Shown here: one piece after another, positions 154-59,300 of the stretch
Numbering within the stretch: position 1 is the stretch's first letter
Layout of the letters: each line of letters begins with the position of its first letter
Assembly: GCF_965363235.1 (NCBI RefSeq)
Contig: NC_134847.1
Location: forward strand, 54,964,439 to 55,028,438
DNA length: 64,000 bases
Origin: Mytilus galloprovincialis
Taxonomy: Eukaryota > Mollusca > Bivalvia > Mytilida > Mytilidae
Reading direction: 5' to 3'
The notes under the pieces: model-generated
The model's database searches: none
What the model was told of the DNA's origin: nothing
The model's input: the letters and a program-made list of their open reading frames with translations, nothing else
Translations under genes and position numbers: made by a program

Positions 154-2694
154 ATACATAAGCAGCCTGGTGAATCGCATTCAAAGTTTGTACGATCACG
201 GAAAATAATTGAATTAAATTGGATTAAAAAATTACAGACAGTTTACCCTCTCGGTCTAAATGATAATATCATGGGAATTGGTAATATATCTAGAACCAAT
301 TCCGTTAACATTTTGGATATAGTTTCTAAAACTGTTCGTAAAAAACGTTCTCACGGTCGTAGAACAAATCGCAATCAAAGAAAATTTCGGGCCAATCATA
401 CCAATATTTCGGACCTAATTTCTATTTCAAAAAACAACGGCAGACATTATCTGTTAACAAAACTCTGTTCGTTACCGGTTAATAAGTTAAATAAAATTTT
501 GGAGGATTGCAACACAATTTCATATAGCAGTCCTAAGTATGAAATTGTTCAAATTATTATGGCATATTGTTATTCTAAATTATTTCCCAAAATTGATCGC
601 CCTGAAGATCATAAAAAACATTTTATTAAAATTAAGTATGTCAATAAAGGCTTTGATTTTGTAAATATTGCCGGTATATTTAACGACCATTCTGTTAAAG
701 AACACATTCCTGGATATTTTGACAATACTGAGCTACCTCTTATTTGTTATATTTACAAGAAATCTACCCGGAAATTTGTGTTTAATTATAGTCAATTGTG
801 TAAAGATGTTAATATCAGTGAAAATACACCTACTTCATGTAATTGCAGTAATTCCGAATATATTTATGGACCCATTTCCCATGTTATTACAGGAGATCTT
901 AACATCGTTCAAGACCGAGAGTTAAAATCATTCCTCAGTAAAGGACCTAAATATCGTCCCCCGTCAATTATTAATTGGAATGAGTGTCGTAATATCATCC
1001 ACGACTCACTCCATACTTACTGTATGAAATGGATAAAACGGGGAAAAGCTGACAAAAAATCTTTGGACTCTTTTTTTAATTCAGTAATGAAGATAGTTGA
1101 TATACGTATTCAACATTTTAAAGAACATTTTACTATAAACAATAACCACAATAAACCTATTTCTCGTATCAAACATAAACTAAAAGAACTAGCCAAGGAA
1201 TTTGTTTTTGTCCCGGCAGATAAAGCTGCTAATAATATTATTATTGTTTGACGTAAATTTTACATTGAGGTTCTGAAAAAGGAAATCACCAATTCACCAA
1301 CATTCCAACTGACTCCATTTTCAGAAAACGAAATCTGTAACAAACATAAACTGTTAGCCACCGCTTTACAAGCAGAGCCAAATACAATGAAAGTCCCAAC
1401 TATGTATTGGCTTCCGAAGCTACACAAAACCCCTTACAAATATAGATTTATTTCGTCTTCAAGCCATTGTTCAACTACTAAATTGTCTATTCTTCTTACC
1501 AGCACACTTGGTACAATTAAAAACCTGATAATAAATTGTTCAAATAAGGCCTTCGAAAATAGTGGAATAAATTACTTTTGGAGTGTCAAGAACTCGTTGG
1601 AAGTACTTGATAAATTGCATGCTTATATTGGTGATTTTGAATCTGTTCAAAGTTTTGATTTTTCTACCCTGTATACCACATTGCCTCACATTCTCATTAA
1701 GAAAAAATTCACACACCTAATTAAATGGGCATTCAAAAAATCAGAATGTGAATATATATGTTCAAACTCTTTTAGGTCATTTTTTAGTAGCAATAAACCA
1801 AAAAACTATGTTAATTGGACATGCTTTGATACTATATATGCCCTTGAATTTTTACTAGATAACATTTTTGTTCGCTTTGGAGATTCCGTATATCGTCAGA
1901 TTATCGGAATCCCAATGGGAACTAACTGTGCACCACTTATTGCGGACCTGTTTTTGTATTGTTATGAGTTACAATTTATGACAAAAATAAGCAAAGACCC
2001 ATCGAAACAACATCTGATAAACAAATTTAATAATACTTTTAGATATTTGGATGATATTTTGGCTCTCAATAATGACGACTTCAGTATGTATATTAATGAA
2101 ATTTATCCTGTTGAACTTACTTTAAATAAAGCTAATACTAACAATGACCACTGCCTTTTTCTTGATCTTGATATCTATATCACTAATGGAAAGCTGAATA
2201 CTAAAATTTATGATAAAAGGGATGAGTTTTCATTTCCTATCGTTAATTATCCGTTTTTAGATGGTGACGTTCCCTTGTCACCATCTTACGGTGTTTATAT
2301 ATCTCAACTTGTACGATTCGCTCGTGTATGTAACAATGTTTTCGATTTTAACGAGAGAAATTTATGTATTACTGAAAAATTATTACACCAGGGTTTTCGA
2401 TATCACAAACTAGTCAAAACATTTACTAAATTTTATCATCGGTATAAAGACATCATTCGTAAATATAGCTCAACATGCAGACTTCTAATACGTTCAGGTA
2501 TTTCACATCCAATTTTTTATGGTAATATTCTTTATAAAGCACAAAGGTGTCAGTATTCACCTCAGAAACTTACAAAACCTTTGAATAGACTTATTAAGAA
2601 GGGATATAATTACGATACTGTTGTCAAGTCATTAAAGATTGCATATTTTGGCGTTAATATTGAGTCACTGATAAGGTCTTTGCATCGGAACTAA
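154..2694 (+). CDS. Naiad endonuclease(partial)-reverse transcriptase with in-frame UGA
   Basis: One reading frame runs from the 5' truncation to TAA at 2692-2694, with a single UGA at 1249-1251; the first Met is at 271. The N-terminal 35 residues match the end of a GIY-YIG nuclease. The linker holds C190 and C192 (numbered from Met271) and GDLNIV...GPKYRPP. Next comes ADKAANNIIIV-UGA-RKFYIEVL. RT motifs follow: PKLHK (about 1420), motif A SFDFSTLYTT with Asp at 1657, motif B GIPMGTNCAP (about 1909), and motif C RYLDDIL (2041-2061). FLDLDIYI and a thumb region come last. All catalytic Asp residues are present. The UGA falls where, as I recall, related bivalve proteins have Cys. Clam Naiads are reported to encode selenocysteine, so recoding is preferred over a nonsense mutation. 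Confidence 0.78.
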
Positions 2695-2746
2695 ACACAT
2701 TTATTCTAAAATACAGTTGTTGGCATGACACGGGTTATGTTCTTCT

Positions 2747-2811
2747 CATATATGTTATGATGGTATGATACTAAACCCCTAACGGGAAGGATTGTGCCTG
2801 ATGTTCATATG
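2747..2811 (+). promoter_or_regulatory. Putative type 2 SECIS element in the Naiad 3' UTR
   Basis: This lies 53 bases after the stop. Helix I is CATAT (2747-2751) with ATATG (2807-2811). The core quartet has ATGA (2757-2760) opposite TGAT (2799-2802). Helix II is GGTATGATAC (2762-2771) with GGATTGTGCC (2789-2798), pairing at nine of ten positions with G-U pairs. An unpaired AAA (2773-2775) follows, 12 bases after the core. A small top helix, CCC with GGG (2784-2786), closes a short loop. Core, distance, A-rich bulge and extra top helix all match a eukaryotic type 2 SECIS. The fold was made by eye; no energy calculation was done. Confidence 0.72.
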
Positions 2812-3335
2812 ATGAAATCATAATCTTTCAGTCAGTTTAATTGAAGTCTGGAGCTGGCATGTCAGTTAACTGCTAGTAGTCTGTTGTTATTTATGTATTA
2901 TTGTCATTTTGTTTATTTTCTTTGGTTACATCTTCTGACATCAGACTCGGATTTCTCTTGAACTGAATTTTAATGTGCGTATTGTTATGCGTTTACTTTA
3001 CTACATTGGTTAGAGGTATAGAGGGAGGGTTGAGATATCACAAACATGTTTAACCCCGCCGCATTTTTGCGCCTGTCCCAAGTCAGGAGCCTCTGGCCTT
3101 TGTTAGTCTTGTATTATTTTAATTTTAGTTTCTTGTGTACAATTTGGAAATTAGTATGGCGTTCATTATCACTGGACTAGTATATATTTGTTTAGGGGCC
3201 AGCTGAAGGACGCCTCCGGGTGCGGGAATTTCTCGCTACATTGAAGACCTGTTGGTGACCCTCTGCTGTTGTTGTTTTTTATTTGGTCGGGTTGTTGTCT
3301 CTTTGACACATTCCCCATTTCCATTCTCAATTTTA

Positions 3336-3770
3336 TTTCCTTGGTACTTGCCTTTTTTGTTTTTGCTTTTAAAGTGTCAGTGATGACTATGCTATGGTCA
3401 CTCATTCCATCTTTGACTGATATGTTTTCAATGCTTGCTGGATTTGTTGTTAGTAAAAGGTCTAATATGTTATCTCGGCGTGTTGGTTCTTTTAATTTTG
3501 GTGTTAGACAGTTTTATTCAAGTGCTTCTTTGAACTTGTTATTGGTTTCCATACTATAGTTGTTTGGTTTTTTTATTTGAAAGTTGTATTTTTATCTATT
3601 TCACATGTTATGTCTGGCATGTTGAAATCACCAGTGAGCACTAGGTTTGGTAGATTATTTGCTTGGTTATCGATGTATTTAAGCTTTCAACGGATGCTAA
3701 ATTATTACTTGTTAATGTCAGTTCATTCTTTGTGTCATCTATGATATGTCCGGATCATACTTATTAAGAC
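3336..3770 (-). mobile_element. LINE AP-endonuclease fragment, upstream part
   Basis: Minus-strand pieces read LTGDFNMPDITCE (about 3605-3660), then PTRRDNILDLLLTTNP and GMSDHSIVITDTLKAK (about 3360-3480). These are the conserved GDFN, NILDL and SDH blocks of non-LTR retrotransposon endonucleases; SDH holds the catalytic His. Frames shift between the blocks, so the copy is decayed. The reading ends in KKASTKEI exactly where the Naiad tail begins, and the continuation is found at 1-152. Confidence 0.75.
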
Positions 3771-19929: not shown

Positions 19930-22900
19930 ACTCATTTGATTTTGTAGTATTAACATATGAAACAACAACAGCATATTCATCGACAACATCGTACACAACA
20001 GATCAACCGACAACAACGTACACAACAGAGACCCCGACATTAACGACTACAACAGATACCTCGACAACAACGTACACAACAGATCAACCGACCATAATGT
20101 ACAGAACAGATACACCGAAAACAACGTACACAACAGATCAACCGACAATGATGTACACAACAGATACACCGACAACAACGTACACAACAGAGACACCGAA
20201 AGGAATGTTTACAACAGAGATCCGGACAACAACGTACACAACAGATAAATTGACAACAACGTACAAAACAGAGACACCGTCAACAACAAACACAACAACG
20301 TACACAACAGAGACACCGTCATCAACAAAAACAAAAACGTACACAACAGATACACCGACAACAATGAACACAACAGATACAACAACAATGACGTACACAA
20401 CAGCGACACCGACAACAACGTACACAACAGAGACACCGAAAACAACGTTTAAAACAGAGTCACCGAAAACAACGTACACAACAGAGACACCAAAAACAAC
20501 GTTAACAACAGAGACACCAACAACAACGTTCACAACAGAGACACCGACATCAACGTACACAACAGATCAGCCGACAACAACGTACACATCAGAGACATCG
20601 ACAATAACGTACACAATAGATCAACAGACAATAATGTACACAACAGATACACCGACAAAAACGTACACAACAGACCAACAGACAATAATGTACCCAACAG
20701 AAACACCGACAACAGCGTTAACAACAGAGACACAGAAAGCAATGTTTACAACAGAGACCCGGAAAACAACGTACACAACAGAGACACCGACAACAACGTA
20801 CACAACAGAGTCACCGAAAACAACGTACACAACAGAGACACCGAAAACAACGTACACAACAGAGACACCGAAAACAACGTTCACAACAGAGACACCGACA
20901 ACAACGTTCACAACAGAGACACCGACAACAACGTACACAGCAAAGACACCGACAACGACGTACACAACAGATACACCGAAAACAAAGTTAACAACAGAGA
21001 CACTGACAACGACGTACACAACAGAAACACCCAAAACAACGTTTACAATAGAGACACAGACAATGACGTACACAACAGAGACACCAAAAACAAAGTTAAC
21101 AACAGAGACACCGACAACAACGTTCACATCAGAGACACCGAAAACAATGTTTACAACAGAGACACCGAAAACAACATACACAACAGAGAAACCAAAAACA
21201 ACGTTTAAGACAGAGACACCGACAACAGCGTACACAATAAATAGATCGACAACAATGAACAAAACAGATACACAAATAACAACGAACACAACATACACAC
21301 CGTCAACAAATACTTCAGATGAACCGACAACAAAGATCACAACAGATGATCTGACAACTACGATCGCAACAGATGAACCGACAACAACGTTCCCAAATGT
21401 TGAATCGACAGCAATGCATTATTCAAATGAACAGAAAACAACGATCACAACAGATAAACCAACAAGATTCACACCATTTGAACCGACAACACTGATTGCA
21501 ACATATGAACAGACAACAACGACCACAACATTTGAACCTTTAACAACGGTCACATCAGATAAACCATCAACAATTTTCACAACTGATGAACCGACAAACA
21601 TCATAACAGATACAACGACAAAACAGATCTCAGGAAATGAACCGACAACAATATACACAACAGTTAAACCGACAACAACAATCCCAACTGTTGAACCGAC
21701 AACAATGATCACAACAGATCAACCGACTGCAACGACCACCACAGATAAGTCGACAACAAACATTTCAACATTTCAGCAAAACACAACAGATCAATTGACA
21801 ACAATCAAAACAGCTGAACTCACAACAGAGATCATGACAGATAAACCGTCAACAACGTTTACAACATATAATCCGACAGTAACTATCACACCAGATGAAC
21901 CGACAAAGATCAATGAAGATACAACCACAATACCGATATCTGCTGATATACCGATAACAACTGTTGAAACGACTTCATCAAATACTTCAGACGTATCGAC
22001 AACAACGATCCCAACAGATAAGCCGACTTCAACAGATAAATCGAGAACAACGATCACATCAGTTGAACCGACAGTTACAATTAGATCAGCTGAACCAACA
22101 ACAAAGATCACAACAGATACGCAGTCAACAAATTTCACAACATATGAACCGACAACAACGACCATAACGCTTGAACCTTTAACAACGTTCACATCAGATA
22201 AACCATCAGCAATGATCACAACTGATGAACCGACAAACATCATAACAGATACAACGACAAAACAGATCTCAGGAAATGAACCGACAACAATATACACAAC
22301 AGATAAACCGACAACAACAATCCCAACTGTTGAACAGACAACAAAGATCACAACAGATCAACCGACTGCAACGATCACCACAGATAAGTCGGCAACAAAC
22401 ATCTCAACATTTCAGCAAAACACAACAGATCAATTGACAGCGATCATGACAGATAAAGCGTCAACAACGTTTACAACATATAATCCGACAGTAACTATCA
22501 ATGCAGATGAACCGACAAAGATCAATGAAGATACAACCACAATACCAATATCTGCAGATAAACCGATAACAATTGTTGAAACGACTTCTTCAAATATTTC
22601 AGACGTATCGACAACAACGATCCCAACAGATAAGCCGACTTCAACAGATAAATCGAGAACAACGATCACATCAGTTGAACCGACAGTTACAATTAGAACA
22701 GCTGAACCCACAACAAAGATCACAACAGATACGCAGTCAACAAATGTCACAACATATGAACCGACAGTAACTATCACATCATATCAACCATCAGAGAATG
22801 CAAAAGATACAACCACAATACCGATCTCAGGAAATGAACCGACAACAGGACACACAACAGATAAAACGACGACAACAATCTCAACAGTTGAACCGACTAC

Positions 22901-25900
22901 AAAGATAACCAGTGATAAGCCGACAACACACATCACAACATTAAAGCAAAACACAACAGATAAATCGACAACGATCAAAACCGCTGAACCCACAACAAAT
23001 ATCATAACAGATAAACCGTCAACAAATGAACCAACGGTAACTATCACATTTGATCAACAGACAAATATCATAACAGATACAAACACAATATCGATATCTG
23101 CAGATAAACCGATTACAACAATCACAACTGTTGAACCGAAAACAACATTCACAACAGTTGAATCAACAGCAAATAATACTTCAGATGAACCGAAAACAAC
23201 GTTCACAACAGTTGAATCAACAACAAATAATACTTCAGATGAACCGAAAACAACGTTCACAACAGATGAATCATCAGCAAATACTACTTCAGATGAACCG
23301 ACAACAACGATCACAACAGATGAACCTACAATTACGACCACAACAGATAAACCGACAACAACTACAACCACAACAGATGAAACGACAACAACTTCGACCA
23401 CAACAGATGAACCGATAACAAGAATTACACCATTTGAACCAACAACAACGATCACAATAAATGAACCTACAACTACGACCACAACAGATGAAACGACAAC
23501 AACTACGACTACAACAGATGAATCGATAACAAGAATCACACCATCTGAAACGACAATAACGATCACAACAGATGAACCTACAACTACGACTACAACAGAT
23601 AAAACGACAACAACTACGACTACAACAGATGAACCGTTAACAAGAATCACACCATCTGAACCGACAACAAAGATCACAACAAATGAACCTACAACTACGA
23701 CCACAACAGATGAACCGACAGCAACTACGACCACAACAGATGAAACGACAACAACTTCGACCACAACAGATGAAACGACAACAACTACGACCACAACAGA
23801 TGAAACGACAACAACTACGACCACAACAGATGAACCAATAACAAGAATCACACCATCTGAACCGACAACATCGATCACAACAGTTGAATTGGCAACAACG
23901 ATCGCATCTGATAAACCGACAACAAAGCTATCAAATGATAATCAAAAATCTTCCGAGGACGCAACAACTCGTATGTATTTTCTTGAATAAATTACGTTTG
24001 TAAAATTTTACGATTTTAGATTGAAATTAAATAAAACTTCTAGTATTTTAATATTTTCCATAATTGCATTGTTACATTTCTAAATGGAGACAAGACTAAA
24101 CTTTTCAGATAGAGAATATAAATAATCAGGGTAGCAAGGTTTTATTTTTTTTTAAACGCCCGGGAACAATAATTCAATTTGTAAAGATGATAGGTCCAAC
24201 GGCAGTCATTGACTATTTACATGTTAACTTACGTTGACTTCTAATGTACTGAATGATTATCTGTTTCAGTTTTGATAGTGATTGTAGTGATATTAGTGAT
24301 TACAGTTATTATCATTGCCGCCATACTTACGTTTGTATGCTGCAAATACATATGGCAAAAAGGAAAAGCGAAGAAGGTTAGTCTACCAAAATTATAATTC
24401 TTAAGAAAACAGTTGTGCTGAATTCTGATTAAAACCGGGATACCACATCCTAAGGAATCTAATGTTTATGGTAATGCTGTTTATCCATTTAAAAGGCGAT
24501 CCATGTACAGTTAACTTTTTCTTGAATAACCATTTTTAAAGTGATATTTTTTTAAAACCGTAGTATGATCTTTGAATATTCTTTTTTTACACTTAATCTG
24601 GTGTACGATCTGATAAAAACTTTAGGTCGGGTAGGACATAATTTGATTATTGGCTGTAGGTTACCTTTCGTTAACTGCCAATACTCTTAGTTCAGTGTGT
24701 CTATGTCTTATATGCGCGTGTTTATTGTTGCAACCGTATGTTTGTTATACTATATAGTTTGATTGTCGTCTTATTGTTGTCGAACCATCCAGTAGTATAA
24801 AAGAGAAAATATTGGATGGTTAAGACCTCGGAAAACAATAATGGTTAATAAGCGTATTTGTATTCTGATATCGGACATATAAATGTGCATGGAGCTTTTT
24901 CGCAATAATTAATTTCATTTTTACTCAGTCATCAAAAATCGCAATCGTAAATGCAAGCAATAATTTCTGAATTTACAGTACCGAAAATATTTGTGTGTTA
25001 ATGTGACTCGTTCAATAATAGACATTAAAATTATGATTTGCAGTCACTTACGTGTTTGGTAGTCATAAACCTGGTTACGAAAACTTTTAAGATGACATAA
25101 AACTTATTGATACTAGTTTGTTCAGCATTTTAAATACATAATTACTATAACAACAATTGAAGTAATTATTATTTCAAATTGTATTTTTACAGACGAAAAC
25201 AATTCCACCAAAATCAGAAAAGAAACCCTCTGATAAAGGACAAGGACCTATAAACCTGGAAGCGGATAATAATTTGTCGATTCAAGATGACTTTAAGAAC
25301 GTATCCCATAGTATTGCTAAACCTGTGTTCCCAATAATGTCACTTGGTTCATTACCACCAATCAGTGACCGTTTCACAGACAAATTGAAGAACAATGGAG
25401 ACAAAGACGACGAAACAAATGAAGAGAAGACTAGAAAATCCAAAAAGAAAAAACGAAAGAGATTTCTTAAAGAAAACCAAGTACATGCATCTGATGAATG
25501 GAAAGGAAATATAGTTGTGAATTCGGAGGATATTAAAACATTTGAAAATGTCAACGAACAAGAAAATCAAAACTCTAAAAAAAAGAAAAAGAAGAAGAAA
25601 AAGTCAAAAGTACAGGAAAACAGCACGGGAATTGATTACACGACAACAACAAATGAACCACCAACACCAACAACAACAATCACATCAATTGAACTGACAG
25701 AAACACAAACAACAACGAAGATGATAAAGCAACCGACAACAATCAAAACAGAAAGATCGACAACCATAAACTTAGATGAAAAAACAAAAATCGTGGCTAA
25801 TCCAACATTTGAAACCGTCAACGAAAAAGAATATGACAGCTCTAGAAAAAGGAAAAAGAAAAAGAAGAAAACAAAATTACAGGAAAATACCAAGGGATTT

Positions 25901-27492: not shown

Positions 27493-28176
27493 TCAAAGTT
27501 TACTCCGAACAGCTGCCGTTCCATCAGCATAAGATTCATATATCATAATAGATTTATCCGTGTCACATGTTGATTTTATCACCGAGGGTTGATTCTGACA
27601 AGCATTTATCCATTTGTGAACGGCTTTATATTCTTCAGTATCAGGAATTTGGAAACCTCTATGATGTTGAAGTACTGGAAATCGCATAGCGAAAGGAGCT
27701 AGCATTATATCAGGCATTGCCATTTTGTCTCCACCGAAGAAAGTAGAAGAATCTGATTTAAATTCCATTAAAGTTTTTAGATTACTAAGTAATTCTGATT
27801 TGACACTCTCTTGAATGTTTTTGTCTTGTTTTAGCAGCATCCTGTAATAGAGAGGCGTGATCTCGCGAGAAATATAGCCACTTACTATTCTCATCTTTGC
27901 CCTATCAAGTGTATCCATTGGAAGAAGTCGATTTTGTTTGCCTCCATATTCATCTACAAATTCTATACATACATCAGACTCGTATACAGATTTGCCATTG
28001 GCTTCTATCACAGGTACAAGCCCTCTAGGATTCAATTGAAGGAACTCCTTTGTTTTTTCTTTGTAAGGGTTATATTCAATATAGTCAAATTCGACACCCT
28101 TTTCAAGCAAAGCAATCCAAGCACGCTGAGCAAAGGGACAGAACCAGGCACAATAAAACTTTAAACGGTTTGTCAT
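27493..28176 (-). CDS. Omega-like glutathione S-transferase
   Basis: 227 residues. The N-terminal thioredoxin fold has FCPFAQRAW (residues 12-20): Cys at the catalytic position, as in omega-class enzymes, which act as thiol transferases or dehydroascorbate reductases rather than the usual Tyr/Ser transferases. The glutathione-binding loop is LNPRGLVPVIE and the ES-containing turn is SVYESDVCIEFVDE. An alpha-helical C-terminal domain follows with GGDKMAMPDIMLAPF. Length is close to the family norm (about 240). The whole coding region is in one exon. CTTTTTTCAG lies one base before the ATG, so at least one 5' UTR intron is likely, which argues against a processed retrocopy. It is a soluble cytosolic enzyme. 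Omega class is favoured by the CPF motif; an unusual related class is possible. Confidence 0.88.
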   Translation of the reverse strand: MTNRLKFYCAWFCPFAQRAWIALLEKGVEFDYIEYNPYKEKTKEFLQLNPRGLVPVIEANGKSVYESDVCIEFVDEYGGKQNRLLPMDTLDRAKMRIVSGYISREITPLYYRMLLKQDKNIQESVKSELLSNLKTLMEFKSDSSTFFGGDKMAMPDIMLAPFAMRFPVLQHHRGFQIPDTEEYKAVHKWINACQNQPSVIKSTCDTDKSIMIYESYADGTAAVRSKL

Positions 28177-34645: not shown

Positions 34646-34809
34646 GTTTGGACTACACCCTAACCATATAGTTCATTGATTGTATATTATATGTATTTGT
34701 CATAACAAGTAAAAAATAGAAAGATTTTAATAGGATAAATCTAAATATTAAAGAAACCAACAACATTTAACTCTAACAAAATTTAATATGATGGGGCAGC
34801 TTAAGGTCC

Positions 34810-35668
34810 TTAAGTATAGAACATTATCTCTAATTCACAATACCCTTACAGTTTTCTTTTATATCAACACCCCATCCAGACCCTCATTCATGTGTATGAC
34901 AGGCACCATTATTTGGTTAATTAGAACGAGATTTACATTTTAGTTTATATTATATTAGTACAATCTCATTTAAATCCAATGTTCTGATACATCTGTTGTC
35001 TTTGTCCATTATTCTCTAATATATTAACACCCCATACAGAACTTCATTCATATATATATATGACAGGGCAGGCATCGTTATTTTTGAGTTATATGAAAAA
35101 TATCTAGAACAAAAATTAAATTTTATTCTGTAAGCTTATAGTTTACATTTTATTCAAATATAAATGAGATATATACTACAAAGCCAATTAAAAAATACTT
35201 ACATTTTCAAAGTATTTATTCAAATAAATCCCGACAAAACAATTTATATTATGTTAAAATGAGAAGAAAATAGATGTGTATTAGTTAGATCTGTTTGTGA
35301 AAATACATTTGGGGATATATTTTTCAAGTCTAAAAATGGTTGTGAAAGAACACATTTCGTAAATGTTTTTTTGGGTTTTTTTTTTTGGCAATTACTAGTA
35401 GTTACTTAAATGATATCAATAATAGTTTTTCTCTGAAAACTTAAGACACTGTGCAAAGGGAGGCAAACCAAATTTTCCAAAAAAAGGTGCCATATCGCCA
35501 GCTGATGGTGCTATATATCAGCAGGTGCTCTGTCAGCAGGTGAGTGATCTAGACCTTACTGCATAAACTAAACATTTTTTTTCTCACAAAGAATGCATTT
35601 GAATAACTATGAACTGTTTTTTTCTGCTCTCATTTCATTTTACCATTGTATTTTTTAAAAAATAGCAT
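34810..35668 (+). repeat. 860-bp block, copy 1
   Basis: It starts CCTTAAGTATAGAACATTAT and ends near CATTGTATTTTT...ATAAAACACA. It is nearly identical to 38455-39317, differing by scattered substitutions and run-length changes. It contains no open frame of note. A G+C-richer patch with GTGCCATATCGCC and several CAGCAGGTG words lies near 35485-35545. Confidence 0.85.
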
Positions 35669-38005: not shown

Positions 38006-38454
38006 TTGAAACATTGCAAGCTCTAAGTCCCCAAGATAAAACCAGATGCTCTGCAGGGCACAGCTTTATACGACCGCAGAGGTCGAACCCTGAACAATTG
38101 GGGCAAGTATGGACACAACATTTAAGCTTGATACAGCTCTGAATTTGGATTCTGATTAAATAGTTGACACAACATAGGTTTCTGACACAGAATGAATGTG
38201 GTCTAAGAACTTAAAACTTAAAAACTTAAAATCTTTAAATTGGACATTTACCTATTATAGTCCTATATCCAAAATCTAAATACATGGTTAGATTCAGCAT
38301 ATAATAGAACCCCATATATTCAATTTTTGTTGAAATCAAACAAAGTTTAATTTTTGACCATTTGGACCTTAATGTAGACCAATTTGAAAACGGGACAATA
38401 CTGTGCAATTGAATATTTCTTGCTATTGTGCAAAACTGTGCAATTGAAAATATC
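38006..38454 (+). repeat. Fragment of a mussel mid-repetitive element
   Basis: It carries GCTTTATACGACCGCAGAGG, AATTGGGGCAAGTATGGACA and AATCTAAATACATGGTTAGA, a word order I recognise from a dispersed mussel repeat. It is flanked directly by a Naiad tail on the left and the 860-bp block on the right. Confidence 0.55.
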
Positions 38455-39317
38455 CTTAAGTATAGAACATTATCTCTAATTCACAATACCCTTACAGTTT
38501 TCTTTTATATCAACACCCCATCCAGACCCTCATTCATTTGTATGACAGGCACCATTATTTGGTTAATTAGAACGAGATTTACATTTTAGTTTATATTATA
38601 TTAGTACAATCTCATTAAAATCCAATGTTCTGATACATCTGTTGTCTTTGTCCATTATTCTCTAATATATTAACACCCCATACAGAACTTCATTCATATA
38701 GATATATGACAGGGCAGGCATCGTTATTTTTGAGTTATATGAAAAATATCTAGAACAAAAATTAAATTTTATTCTGTAAGCTTATAGTTTATATTTTATT
38801 CAAATATAAATGAGATATACTACAAAGCCAATTAAAAAATACTTACATTTTCAAAGTATTTATTCAAATAAATCCCGACAAAACAATTTATATTATGTTA
38901 AAATGAGAAGAAAATAGATGTATATTAGTTAGATCTGTTTGTGAAAATACATTTGGAGATATATTTTTCAAGTCTAAAAATGGTTGTGAAAGAACACATT
39001 TCGTAAATGTTTTTTTGGGTTTTTTTTGGCAATTACTAGTAGTTACTTAAATGATATCAATAATAGTTTTTCTCTGAAAACTTAAGACACTGTGCAAAGG
39101 GAGGCAAACCAAATTTTCCAAAAAAAGGTGCCATATCGCCGGCTGATGGTGCTATATATCAGCAGGTGCTCTATCAGCAGGTGAGTGATCTAGACCTTAC
39201 TGGATAAACTAAACTTTTTTTTTTCTCACAAAGAATGCATTTTAATAACTATGAACTGTTTTTTTCTGCTCTTATTTCATTTTACCATTGTATTTTTATA
39301 AAAAATATCATAAAACA
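38455..39317 (+). repeat. 860-bp block, copy 2
   Basis: Near-identical direct copy of 34810-35668, with start points 3645 bases apart. The flanks differ on both sides, so the copies are either two insertions of one unclassified element or a local duplication with later insertions. Confidence 0.85.
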
Positions 39318-46900: not shown

Positions 46901-46943
46901 ACTAGTTGGTTGTCTAGAGTTTACTCTGATGATGTTAATAAAC

Positions 46944-47460
46944 TTGAGAATGGTAATGTAGAATGTGTTAAAGACACAGAAATTAACAACTGTTGTTCAC
47001 CGTATGGCCTACAGAAATAAACAAAGCCCATACCGCATAGTCAGCTATAAAAAGCCCCGAAATGTCAAATATAAAACAATTTAAACGAGAAAACTATTAT
47101 TATTGACATTTTAAGACACAGTGATTTTAAATCATTTTTTTTTTAAATCTTTTAATGTCAATATTATCATGAAATTTTACTAATACAAAGAATGCTGTCG
47201 AAACCATTGTATATGATAAGGCATACATTATTCTTTCGTATTTTAAGCATCTTGACAGGTAAAACAATTGCAACTGCTAAAAAAAATAACAATGAGCTAT
47301 CTATCTCCTTTCTCTCGTTTCAAAGCACCAAAAGTCACCACAGTCCTTTAGTTTTCTGTGTAGTGTTTTGTGATCTTGTAGATCTTTTTGTTGTTTTTTG
47401 CAATGGCATTGCCAGTTTCTCCTAAGATTTATACTTCCCATTTGGTATCTGTTTGCTTCT
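46944..47460. repeat. Fragments of two dispersed repeats
   Basis: 46944-47070 is a minus copy of the repeat at 6370-6890 (CACCGTATGGCC; CATAGTCAGCTATAAAAAGC). 47350-47460 is a plus copy of the 10200-10400 family. Confidence 0.5.
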
Positions 47461-48472: not shown

Positions 48473-50191
48473 ATGGCTTCTTCAGACCAATTTTGTACGC
48501 TATGTGAACAGAACCATATAGCAAAGACAGCTGAAATATGGTGTTATGAATGTCAAGATTATTTGTGTCTTGATTGCCGCAGACCTCATAGTGTTTCAAG
48601 GTTGTCAAAACGACATAATACAGTTTCCATTGACGAATACAAAAAACTTCCATCCTATATTCGTTCAATAAAACACATCTGTGAAGAACATGACGAGCAT
48701 TTTGATTCTTTCTGTCCAACACATAACATTACATGCTGCAGAAAGTGTATTCTATTAGATCATAAAAACTGCACAGACATATCGCTACTTGAGGAAACTT
48801 TACAAACTGTGAACCAAACAACAAGATTATCGAAACTCGATCAGAGCGTTGGTGATGTTATGGAATATATACAAAAAGTGAAGAGCAATAGAACCAACTA
48901 CAAACAAATGATTCTAAAACAAGAACAAACAGTAAAGGACGATATCAGCAAAGTTCGTGAAAGGCTTAATAACAGTCTAGATGATATTGAAAGGACAACA
49001 TTGAGAGAACTTTCCCAAGTGGTGCATACTGAAATAAGTAACAATGACAAATCCATCCAGACATTGTTTGGGATAGAAAAAGATGTTACAATTTTATCAA
49101 GAAATATACAACTGATTAAGGAAAATGCTACAAATATGCAGGTACTATTAGGTGTCCAGGAAATAGAATCATCCTTAGTATCTGCAAAAAGATCTCTCGA
49201 AACTTTCCGAAAAGAAGGAAATACAGACAGTAAATCAATCACATTTGATGGAAAAAATGTCGAAATTATTATTAAAGACATGAAATCGTTTGGTACATTA
49301 GCTAGTTCAAAAACCTCAAGTAGTATAGATATCATTGATAGCGAGTCGACACAAGCGCAGATATTTGCAAATACTTCAAATACCTATGACAGCGTTACTC
49401 TTAAATTGAATAGAACTATTGAAATCCAGCAAAGGACTCATTCCAATTTTATATGCGGCTGTACCTTCTTGCCTGAAAATAAAGTGTTGATAGGTGAATT
49501 TAACAATAGCAGTTACTATGATCGGATTATTTCGATTGATGAAAAAGGGTCAAACATAAAAGAACATCATTTAAATGAGAGCAGCTCGAAAAATATTGCG
49601 GTATTCGATATAGAAAAAGCTTCAACAGACGGAAACACAATTGCAATCTCTTCCCGGGATAGTAAAGTTTTCCTTTTTAATTTGGGAAATTCAAACTTAA
49701 AGGAAATACCAATAGATGGCGAGACTAATGGCATTTCATATCACGATGGAACGCTGTATTGTTGTTCAGCCTCTAGAGGAATCAAAAGCGTTAATATTGA
49801 GGATGATACACATATTGTTCTAGATGTTCTTTCCTTTAACTGTAGAACATATTCGTATATAGCGTATCATAACGACTTACTTTATTACACGAACACTGAA
49901 ACAAGCATTGAATGCTGCGATATTAAAGGCAAACGATTATGGTCATTAGAAGACAGAGAAATATTAAAACAACCACGTGGTATCGTCGTTGATAAAAATG
50001 GAAATATATTCGTAGTAGGTGGTCGTTCTGAAAACGTCGTTGTTATATCAGCTGATGGTAAAAAATGCAGAGAAATTCTATCTAAAGATTCTGGACTGAG
50101 CAGTCCTAGAGCTATAGCGTACAACCATGAGTACAATAGATTGCTCATTTGCAACAATCAATTTAAAGCTTTTATATATGATGTTGTATAA
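48473..50191 (+). CDS. RING-less TRIM-like protein with two B-boxes
   Basis: 572 residues in one exon. TTCTTATCTCAG lies six bases before the ATG, so a 5' UTR intron is likely. Residues 8-52 form a B-box 1 (FCTLC, WCYECQDYLCLDC, KRHNT) and 67-104 a B-box 2 (HICEEHDEHFDSFC, CCRKCILLDHKNC). All expected zinc ligands are present. Residues 110-240 are a coiled coil. About 300-572 form beta-propeller-like repeats (EIPIDGETNGISYHDGTLYC, LKQPRGIVVDKNGNIFVVGG, SSPRAIAYN), as in NHL or TRIM2/3-type C-termini. No RING finger is present, so it should not be a ubiquitin ligase by itself. Large families of such genes occur in bivalves and are often linked to innate immunity; that role is an inference here. 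Confidence 0.9.
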   Translation: MASSDQFCTLCEQNHIAKTAEIWCYECQDYLCLDCRRPHSVSRLSKRHNTVSIDEYKKLPSYIRSIKHICEEHDEHFDSFCPTHNITCCRKCILLDHKNCTDISLLEETLQTVNQTTRLSKLDQSVGDVMEYIQKVKSNRTNYKQMILKQEQTVKDDISKVRERLNNSLDDIERTTLRELSQVVHTEISNNDKSIQTLFGIEKDVTILSRNIQLIKENATNMQVLLGVQEIESSLVSAKRSLETFRKEGNTDSKSITFDGKNVEIIIKDMKSFGTLASSKTSSSIDIIDSESTQAQIFANTSNTYDSVTLKLNRTIEIQQRTHSNFICGCTFLPENKVLIGEFNNSSYYDRIISIDEKGSNIKEHHLNESSSKNIAVFDIEKASTDGNTIAISSRDSKVFLFNLGNSNLKEIPIDGETNGISYHDGTLYCCSASRGIKSVNIEDDTHIVLDVLSFNCRTYSYIAYHNDLLYYTNTETSIECCDIKGKRLWSLEDREILKQPRGIVVDKNGNIFVVGGRSENVVVISADGKKCREILSKDSGLSSPRAIAYNHEYNRLLICNNQFKAFIYDVV

Positions 50192-56331: not shown

Positions 56332-59300
56332 TTAATAGTCAGCTGACCACCTTATTTTGTTCCCTCTTTGATCCTGATACTCGTCTGGTTTCCTTTGTCG
56401 TTCATTTCCGAACGTGGAAGACGGATTTTCCACAGCTGGTCGCCTGTTCTGTTGATTGGACATAACGGGATTATCAAAATAATACACACTGATGTTTTCA
56501 GGGCGGCTGTTGTATTGGCTTCTTCGTTTGTCCTTTTTTTGAGATTTCTCTCTGTTTTGGTTGTGGCTCCCTGATGCAACGGTGTGAGATCGTCTTAGGA
56601 CAACATCTTTGTTGTCATTAGATTGCTGTGGGTAAGAAAGAAAGGATATTTTTTTTAATAAGATTTGCTTTTATCAAAATGAATACTAATAAATTGGTAT
56701 TTTAATACATGCTGCCAATTCTTTAGTTTCTATGTTGTTTTGTGTACTGTTGGTTGTCCATTTGCCTTTTGCGTTTTAAGCCATGGCGTTGTCACTTCAT
56801 TTTTGATTTGTGAGTTTGTGGTACTATCTTTCGCCTCTCTTTAAGAGGCAATGATTAAATCACATGACTTTTAAATGGCGTGAAATTATCAGATGTATGT
56901 CTCCAATTTACATCCAGAATTTGTAATTGAATCAACTTGCCATTTCATTTTAATATTTGATAAATTCATACTTATCTTTAAAACAATCTACCTTTTCGTT
57001 ATTTTCGTATGATTTCGATATGTTCTGAACACTGGTTGGTTTTCCATTATCAGCTTTGACAGGTCCGTATACATCTGTTGTAGATTTTGAATCATTTTCT
57101 GGTGTAATGCCCTTATCCCCTTTTAGGCTATTTTGATTGGTATTTCTACTATTCTCAAAACTTGTGACCAGACTATCATTAAGTTTTTTTGCTTTCAAAA
57201 TGCTAGTTGAATCTGTAAAAATAGTAACCGAATGCTATTTTAAAAATGCTAACACTTATACATGTTATATGTCTTTACAAATATACGTTTAATTGCATAA
57301 TTTGGATAGATTTAAGCCAAGACGTATGTTTTCATCTCCTACGTTTAACCAATAAACAAAGGCAGCGGCCATTGCAGAAACACTTTTGTCCGATAGTTTT
57401 ATACAATTGTTAGAGAGTTAACCACTGAATACGTGTGTCACATATGTGGAAGGATAATTTGTATCTATCGTTACGCCTTGTTTTTGCTAACGTTATCTTG
57501 GTTGATTTTTGTAGAGGTTCGTGTTGCTCAGATGTTTAATTCATAAGAATATGTTGTTTTTGTCATATTTTTCTTAAATTTATTGCGCCTATTTGTAAGG
57601 AGTAGTTTATTTTTTTTCACTTAACCTTGAGCCTACCTTATAAACGATCTTACAGTGTTAAAAATTAAATCCGATAGTGTATTATATATTCAATTATTTT
57701 ATAATGTCATGTACTCAGATTTGACATACTTTTGATATGAAATATTTCAATGTATTTTCCGGTCATTTAATTTTTTTTTGTCAATTTTTTCATTATCTTT
57801 TTCTTTAGAGCACGAAGTTTGCTGTTCTTTCGACGTTTGATTTTTGAATGCCCATTAATATATATCTTTATTTTTCAAATAGTTTTTAAAAGACAAAATA
57901 GAACATTGCTTTCTTTCCACAACCCTTACCAGACGACTCCCTTTTCGAATCACTGGTTGACGTAGCAAAACTTTCCCTGGTAGTTTTCTGAAGACAAAAA
58001 GAACAGTATTCGATCATTACATACATCCATTCAAAAACATTTCTGTTATCTATAGTGAAACTGATTGGTATATTTATTCAATATATTAATTATTGTAAAA
58101 CATCTTATTTCTATCACAGGGAAACCATCTAAGTAGAAAAAGTAGAACTCAACGAATTTTCACTGAGTTTGGTTATTCAAGGTTATCATTTTGATCTGAG
58201 TGTCACTGATGAGTCTAATATAGACGAAACGCTTGCTGGTGTATTAAATTATACAACTGGAAATACTTGCAGCTAATTGTATATTATTAGTTTGTCTGTT
58301 GTAAAGTTTGAAAACAAGACGCTCTCAAGAGCCTGAATCGCTCACCTGGTAAACAATGCCTTATTGAACATATTGAACCATGCCAGGCAAACATGTACAG
58401 CTAACAATTCTTCAATATTACAAATATATATGACTTACTGTTTATAAATAAAGAAAATGTGACCAAAACACAAACACTTAAAACTTACCGCTGTTAAAAA
58501 GTCATTATTCGATTGAAAGAATACAAATACGGGTTACAAACTAATACCGACGGAATCTACTAACTTTTGAGTTTTATTTTGAGTAAATTGTAGATATATA
58601 CTTACTTGTGAGCTTTGTTTTGAGTAAATTGATGATTTATCAGCTCCCTTTACTCGCATCGTTTGTATTCCTTCTCGAATCTGTTGGTTTAAAACTGTAT
58701 GGAATAGGAAAATGAAAAATCCCTGAAATCATACGATAAAAATATCTTAGAAAAACATATATTCAAATCCCAGAGTAATTATTACTAATTTCTTTGCAAA
58801 TCTAATACGTCCTTGACCTCCATTTTTTAAAGTTTGACCGTTCCTGATGAAAGAAAATCCACAAAAGAATTTCAAAAGCTTATACAAATTTATAATTGTT
58901 ATTTTCATTTTTCATTTACAAGACATAACTAATCACTGAAGTGAACATGCTATTGAAAAAGAATCACCGAAAAAGACAGAAAAATGGAGGACGTGTGCTC
59001 CTGATTCACGCATTTCAATTCACTCGACGACTCTCGTTGATGGTCATTATGAAACGACAATATGTGATTCTTAATTCGTTTCTTTGTGCTTGATTCAAAC
59101 GTTCAGCTATTTAAATTTTGGCGGTATCTGGTGTGTCGTATAAAGACGTAAGGCAAAATTGTAGTACAAAATTATACGCATTTATTTTCTTATGAGTTTT
59201 AAAGATATTCTGATATCCTTTTTGATTTGTTATATATCCAACTGCAGACCTAATAATTTTACCTGTAAAGAGTTAACAACTGCAAACAAATACTGGAACA

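Follow-up and report, generated by a model that had tools for sequence, protein, structure and literature searches.

A Penelope-like retroelement copy of Mytilus galloprovincialis whose source very likely encoded a selenoprotein reverse transcriptase

The window analysed here, a stretch of 64,000 nucleotides of the Mytilus galloprovincialis genome, carries a 5′-truncated copy of a Penelope-like element (PLE), most likely of the Naiad type, and there are strong grounds to believe that the reverse transcriptase (RT) of its source element was encoded as a selenoprotein. The only in-frame UGA of the copy falls at a position occupied by cysteine in a relative with an intact frame (locus L003), and a match to the SECIS model lies just past the stop codon on the right strand. 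Selenocysteine is therefore by far the best reading of this codon. Our confidence is slightly lowered because the second match in the Rfam scan that detects the SECIS-like element scores so close to it, and because a distant PLE with an intact frame (locus L028) has no cysteine at the site. The copy and its coding features are the following:

158 to 3337 (+): 5′-truncated Penelope-like, probably Naiad-type, retroelement copy; the 5′ end is approximate (+/- 8)
154 to 2694 (+): frame of 846 codons and a TAA, open except for a single in-frame UGA
838 to 846 (+): CNC, a CxC-type motif N-terminal to the RT, read from the translation
1210 to 1224 (+): VPADK, where the RT fingers motif begins; conserved in L003, SADKGS in L028
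1249 to 1251 (+): TGA, the proposed selenocysteine codon, frame residue 366; cysteine (TGT) in L003, SECIS-like element downstream
1414 to 1428 (+): PKLHK, RT motif 2, from the alignment to relatives
1654 to 1689 (+): FDFSTLYTTLPH, RT motif A, from the alignment to relatives
1906 to 1935 (+): GIPMGTNCAP, RT motif B, from the alignment to relatives
2044 to 2055 (+): YLDD, RT motif C, from the alignment to relatives

An earlier note on this DNA, made from its letters, had described the frame from 154 to 2694 as open save for one UGA. The frame scan agrees: between an upstream stop at 151-153 and the terminal TAA at 2692-2694, both on the plus strand, the TGA at 1249-1251 is the only stop among 846 codons. 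Under the standard code the frame is split into two ORFs, 271-1251 and 1387-2694. The peptides that had been quoted on the two sides of the UGA, ADKAANNIIIV and RKFYIEVL, match the translation exactly, and the UGA residue stands after the ADKxxNN motif and before RT motifs 2 and A-C. By itself, a lone UGA in an aging copy is unsurprising. The open frame alone is weak evidence, since a truncated copy that has diverged by a few percent from its relatives could carry a stop by chance.

The same note had called the product a reverse transcriptase, and homology together with the order of the motifs identifies it as a Penelope-like one. Homology links the window RT to L028 (BLASTP E = 1e-9; hhalign 97.6%), which we take to be a PLE by its motifs and which itself matches RVT_1 with E = 8e-9. 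The motifs ADK, PKLHK, FDFSTLYTTLPH, GIPMGTNCAP and YLDD follow one another in the expected order. Pfam returned nothing on the full frame 154-2694 and weak matches on pieces of it, RVT_1 reaching E = 0.069 on one fragment, and NCBIfam returned nothing. A structure prediction (mean pLDDT 38.5, pTM 0.28) was not used as evidence.

Relatives of the element were sought in several collections. A pattern of conserved RT motifs, run over genome contigs, gave one match (L001), which led to PLE fragments in a Bathymodiolus symbiont assembly (G001); a search of this assembly with the window protein gave 10 matches. The family-level genome search found matches in 3 of 83 genomes (G001, G058 and G070), the order-level set being the same 83. 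At the class level one genome of 369 matched, and at the phylum level, with profile A2, one of 398; in both cases it was G001. The animal-type PLE fragments in this assembly, which is assigned to a Candidatus Thiodubiliella symbiont, comprise L001-L011, L025-L027 and L031. They are probably contamination from the Bathymodiolus host, and L003 is thus probably DNA of the host mussel. The 3′ UTR DNA of the window was not found in G001, G058 or G070. The RT protein had no match among phage and plasmid records, and two matches among PDB sequences were at chance level (E 0.27 and 0.57). Protein patterns run over viral contigs in three scans picked out 2, 13 and 75 stretches, none of them confirmed. 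With DNA patterns the counts were 0, 0, 5 and 3, and the stretches so obtained (L017-L024) did not look related. Scans for promoter and terminator consensus sequences gave nothing useful.

The loci from G001, G058 and G070 include three distinct places that cover the UGA site. The most informative is L003, on contig C17 of G001, which has an open frame and reads VPADKASNNIVFVCKSYYFE. It is 42% identical to the window protein over 123 columns (BLASTP E = 1e-29), and a cysteine with the codon TGT is aligned to the UGA with no gap; the cysteine is unchanged when the site in the query is masked as X. Locus L025 is the same place as L003. The second place, the decayed L031, contains stops and has a methionine aligned at the site beside a five-residue deletion; it is absent over the UGA site in the X-masked search. 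The third, L028 (G058:C405), is a distant PLE with an intact frame, where ADKGSAIVVMD puts an aspartate at the site by hhalign, while tblastn puts an asparagine there across an eight-residue gap. Cysteine is therefore found at one of the three places, that of the closest relative with an intact frame. The expectation of the earlier note that relatives would carry cysteine here holds for L003 and fails for L031 and L028. Its claim that coding is conserved on both sides of the UGA is borne out, as the homology to L003 runs gapless through the site and other PLE fragments match downstream of it.

A SECIS-like hairpin had also been mentioned, with no coordinates, and one was found in the 3′ UTR with the following parts:

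2747 to 2811 (+): SECIS-like element of type II form; RF00031 match of 32.3 bits, folds and pattern scan
2757 to 2760 (+): AUGA
2773 to 2775 (+): apical AAA; the apical part also has a CCC/GGG mini-helix
2799 to 2802 (+): UGAU

The element starts 52 nt beyond the TAA of the frame, on the coding strand, and its apical AAA is spaced 12 nt after the AUGA. The match to Rfam SECIS_1 (RF00031) covers the whole model and, at 32.3 bits, is 2.7 bits short of the cut-off of 35. In a scan of the whole 64-kb window at gathering level, nothing exceeded the Rfam cut-offs, the SECIS-like element included. In a permissive scan of the same 64 kb, it came first among the 10 matches listed (E = 0.017), followed by a microRNA model placed on a low-complexity repeat with 32.2 bits and E = 0.023, the cut-off of that model being 90.8. 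The E-value of the SECIS_1 match in a permissive scan of the 801-base slice 2600-3400 was 0.00022, for a slice picked after the motif had been spotted by eye. Elsewhere in the window, a hammerhead-like sequence of type III at 58197-58235 (+) matches weakly, with 27.9 bits where the gathering score is 48.5.

The minimum-energy fold reproduces the SECIS shape. The 46-nt core folds with z = -2.62, two of 200 shuffles being equally stable; longer stretches do not stand out in stability (z = -1.15 for 101 nt, -1.88 for 65 nt and -1.80 for 72 nt). In addition, both strands of the 64 kb were scanned for a pattern of ATGA, AA and TGAT with pairing at 10 positions. With at least 9 of the 10 pairs, the strict pattern occurs once on the two strands together, in the element at 2747-2811; at 8 of 10 pairs it occurs at three places. 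When the 3′ quartet is loosened to NGAN, at least 9 pairs are formed at seven places (4 on the plus strand and 3 on the minus strand). This increase from one place to seven suggests that the 3′ quartet carries much of the discrimination. Among 17 prokaryote genomes (the 3 contaminated symbiont genomes G001, G058 and G070, and 14 controls), no SECIS_1 match exceeded the cut-off; matches below it were seen in 2 of the 3 contaminated genomes (18.6 and 17.8 bits) and in 4 of the 14 controls. The SECIS-like element is the feature of this locus least likely to have arisen by chance. Together with the cysteine in L003 and the homology that flanks the UGA on either side, it leaves the selenocysteine reading first suggested in the earlier note well supported.

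The history of the copy bears on how its UGA should be read. Related 3′ sequences in the window are:

2966 to 3337 (+): 3′ tail common, in part or whole, to the window remnants, 97-99% identity
35875 to 36243 (+): tail remnant, 97-99% identity
16339 to 16584 (-): tail remnant, 97-99% identity
37798 to 38005 (-): tail remnant, 97-99% identity
8331 to 8381 (-): shorter related piece, 90%
46937 to 46978 (-): shorter related piece, 86%

The three other tails end, like the copy at 3337, in CAATTTTATT. These begin further downstream than the copy, and none of the three reaches the SECIS-like element or the UGA. On the outer sides of the copy, positions 1-157 and 3338 to about 3800 resemble, on the minus strand, a single older non-LTR ORF split in two, its halves flanking the PLE in antisense (...DHSIVITDTLKAKTKKASTKEI and FKVCIYKKGNMNGINKQLDKELNNFIQK...). 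The right half matches Exo_endo_phos_2 with E = 0.0026 and 18 bits, below the cut-off of 27.4, and the left half is presumably part of the same non-LTR ORF. Since the flanks look like two halves of one ORF, the PLE was probably inserted into, and is now nested in, an older non-LTR retrotransposon, with its 5′ end near 158. The copy is probably a dead, 5′-truncated derivative of a selenoprotein-coding source, that is, a record of such an element rather than a mobile one itself.

Other features of the window include an ORF of 1297 aa at 20097-23990 (+), which consists mostly of 27-bp (9-residue) repeats and has no Pfam match at E 0.1, and a duplication of about 0.85 kb (34807-35662 and 38453-39304), whose units lie 3.6 kb apart in the same orientation and share blocks of 95-99% identity. 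A glutathione S-transferase-like ORF is present at 27493-28176 (-), and an ORF with a B-box and a beta-propeller-like part (TRIM-type) at 48473-50191 (+).

In such a copy the UGA could be an ordinary nonsense mutation, a cysteine codon TGT or TGC changed to TGA in a dead element, and the hairpin a chance resemblance. Truncation of the copy and its 1-3% divergence from the three larger tails fit this reading, since neutral decay would be expected to give a stop or two. With the site counted as TGT, 393 of the 7,614 possible single-base changes in the frame (about 5%) yield a stop, and the score of the SECIS-like element is below the Rfam cut-off. However, only 23 of these 393 nonsense changes (6%) turn a cysteine codon into TGA, and there are no other internal stops. 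Moreover, the SECIS match is full-length, has the position and strand that a working element should have, and ranks first in the permissive Rfam scan of the 64 kb. We therefore regard a plain nonsense mutation as unlikely.

It is also conceivable that the source was a selenoprotein whose selenocysteine stood at another site, such as one in the N-terminal endonuclease that has been lost. The SECIS would then be real and the UGA at 1249-1251 a mutation private to this copy. An N-terminal part does appear to have been lost, and selenoprotein Naiads reportedly carry several selenocysteine codons. Nevertheless, the UGA coincides with the cysteine position of the closer relative L003, which is where selenocysteine would be expected, and this makes the explanation very improbable. 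Finally, leaky read-through that puts an ordinary amino acid at the UGA and gives proteins of two lengths is hardly credible: the site does read UGAC, and UGA-C is a leaky stop context, but the SECIS would be left unexplained and the shorter protein would be without motifs A-C of the RT.

If the UGA is instead read as selenocysteine, the following course of events may be proposed for the source element. The hairpin, 52 nt past the stop codon of its mRNA, would recruit the host SECIS-binding protein and, with it, the selenocysteine-specific elongation factor carrying Sec-tRNA. The UGA at 1249-1251 would then be decoded as selenocysteine, which would stand in for the cysteine that ends the first fingers motif (ADKxxNNIIIV-U). 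In the case of no recoding, translation would break off ahead of motifs 2, A, B and C of the RT, and for this reason an active RT would depend on the selenium machinery of the host. Both the insertion of selenocysteine and its chemical role are predicted from the sequence. Decoding of this kind is plausible in mussels, because two deiodinase cDNAs with a UGA and a sequence-predicted SECIS are described for Mytilus coruscus in PMC8481496.

The assignment to Naiads is based on several traits. According to Craig et al. from 2021, Naiads reportedly have a CxC motif between the endonuclease and the RT, an insertion in the fingers (IFD), an N-terminal GIY-YIG domain and no C-terminal endonuclease. 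In the window copy, the CNC at 838-846 may be this CxC motif; it is missing from the decayed relative L031. About 15 extra residues lie between motif 2 and motif A when compared with L028, and may correspond to the fingers insertion. No endonuclease was recognised C-terminal to the RT, consistent with the Naiad trait: the last 134 residues of the frame, which ends at 2694, gave four weak Pfam matches, none of them over the cut-off and none to GIY-YIG. The defining N-terminal GIY-YIG domain was not found by Pfam in what remains of the copy, which is truncated near 158. The first residues, LNWIKKLQTVYPLGLND, may be the end of such a domain, in which case the missing N-terminal part would reflect ordinary 5′ truncation. 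Judged by the CNC motif, the added residues that separate motif 2 from motif A and the lack of a recognised C-terminal endonuclease, membership of the Naiad clade is plausible.

Few selenoprotein genes are known from mobile elements. In each independent case, a selfish element would have gained the switch from cysteine to selenocysteine together with a SECIS, and would spread both in its copies. A selenoprotein retroelement may draw on the selenocysteine machinery of its host, which would tie transposition to selenium. It also looks like a pseudogene and thus confounds annotation. A search of titles and abstracts found no selenoprotein retroelement; most journals are outside its coverage, so this says little about what is in print.

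Three known systems can be compared with the window copy. The deiodinases of Mytilus coruscus share with it an in-frame UGA and a SECIS in the 3′ UTR; they differ in being host enzymes with selenocysteine at the catalytic centre, and not parts of a mobile element. The distant L028 has the same RT motifs (ADK, PKxHK, LYTxxPH, G..MGT..AP and DD), but is only 22-27% identical and has no cysteine at the site, where the two alignment methods place Asp or Asn. It is probably of the canonical PLE kind with a C-terminal endonuclease, its 3′ end being cut off.

The third system is that of the Naiads. Spider and clam Naiads reportedly evolved, independently of each other, into selenoproteins with multiple selenocysteines (Craig, Yushenova, Rodriguez and Arkhipova, in MBE in 2021). 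This Naiad paper appears among the references of PMC11167929. The window copy resembles Naiads in its PLE-type RT, in having no recognised endonuclease after the RT, in its UGA accompanied by a SECIS-like element, and perhaps also in the CxC-type motif before the RT and in the added residues that separate motif 2 from motif A. It differs from them in showing one selenocysteine codon where several are reported, and in missing the N-terminal GIY-YIG domain, apparently through truncation. The element is probably a real selenoprotein retroelement that would join the selenoprotein Naiads as a further member. More speculatively, and with considerable doubt, a mussel Naiad-type lineage may have fixed one selenocysteine of its own within the fingers motif of the RT, as a gain separate from those of the clam and spider Naiads that reportedly carry several selenocysteines. 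If so, the production of RT in this lineage, and hence its mobility, would hinge on the selenium supply of the host.
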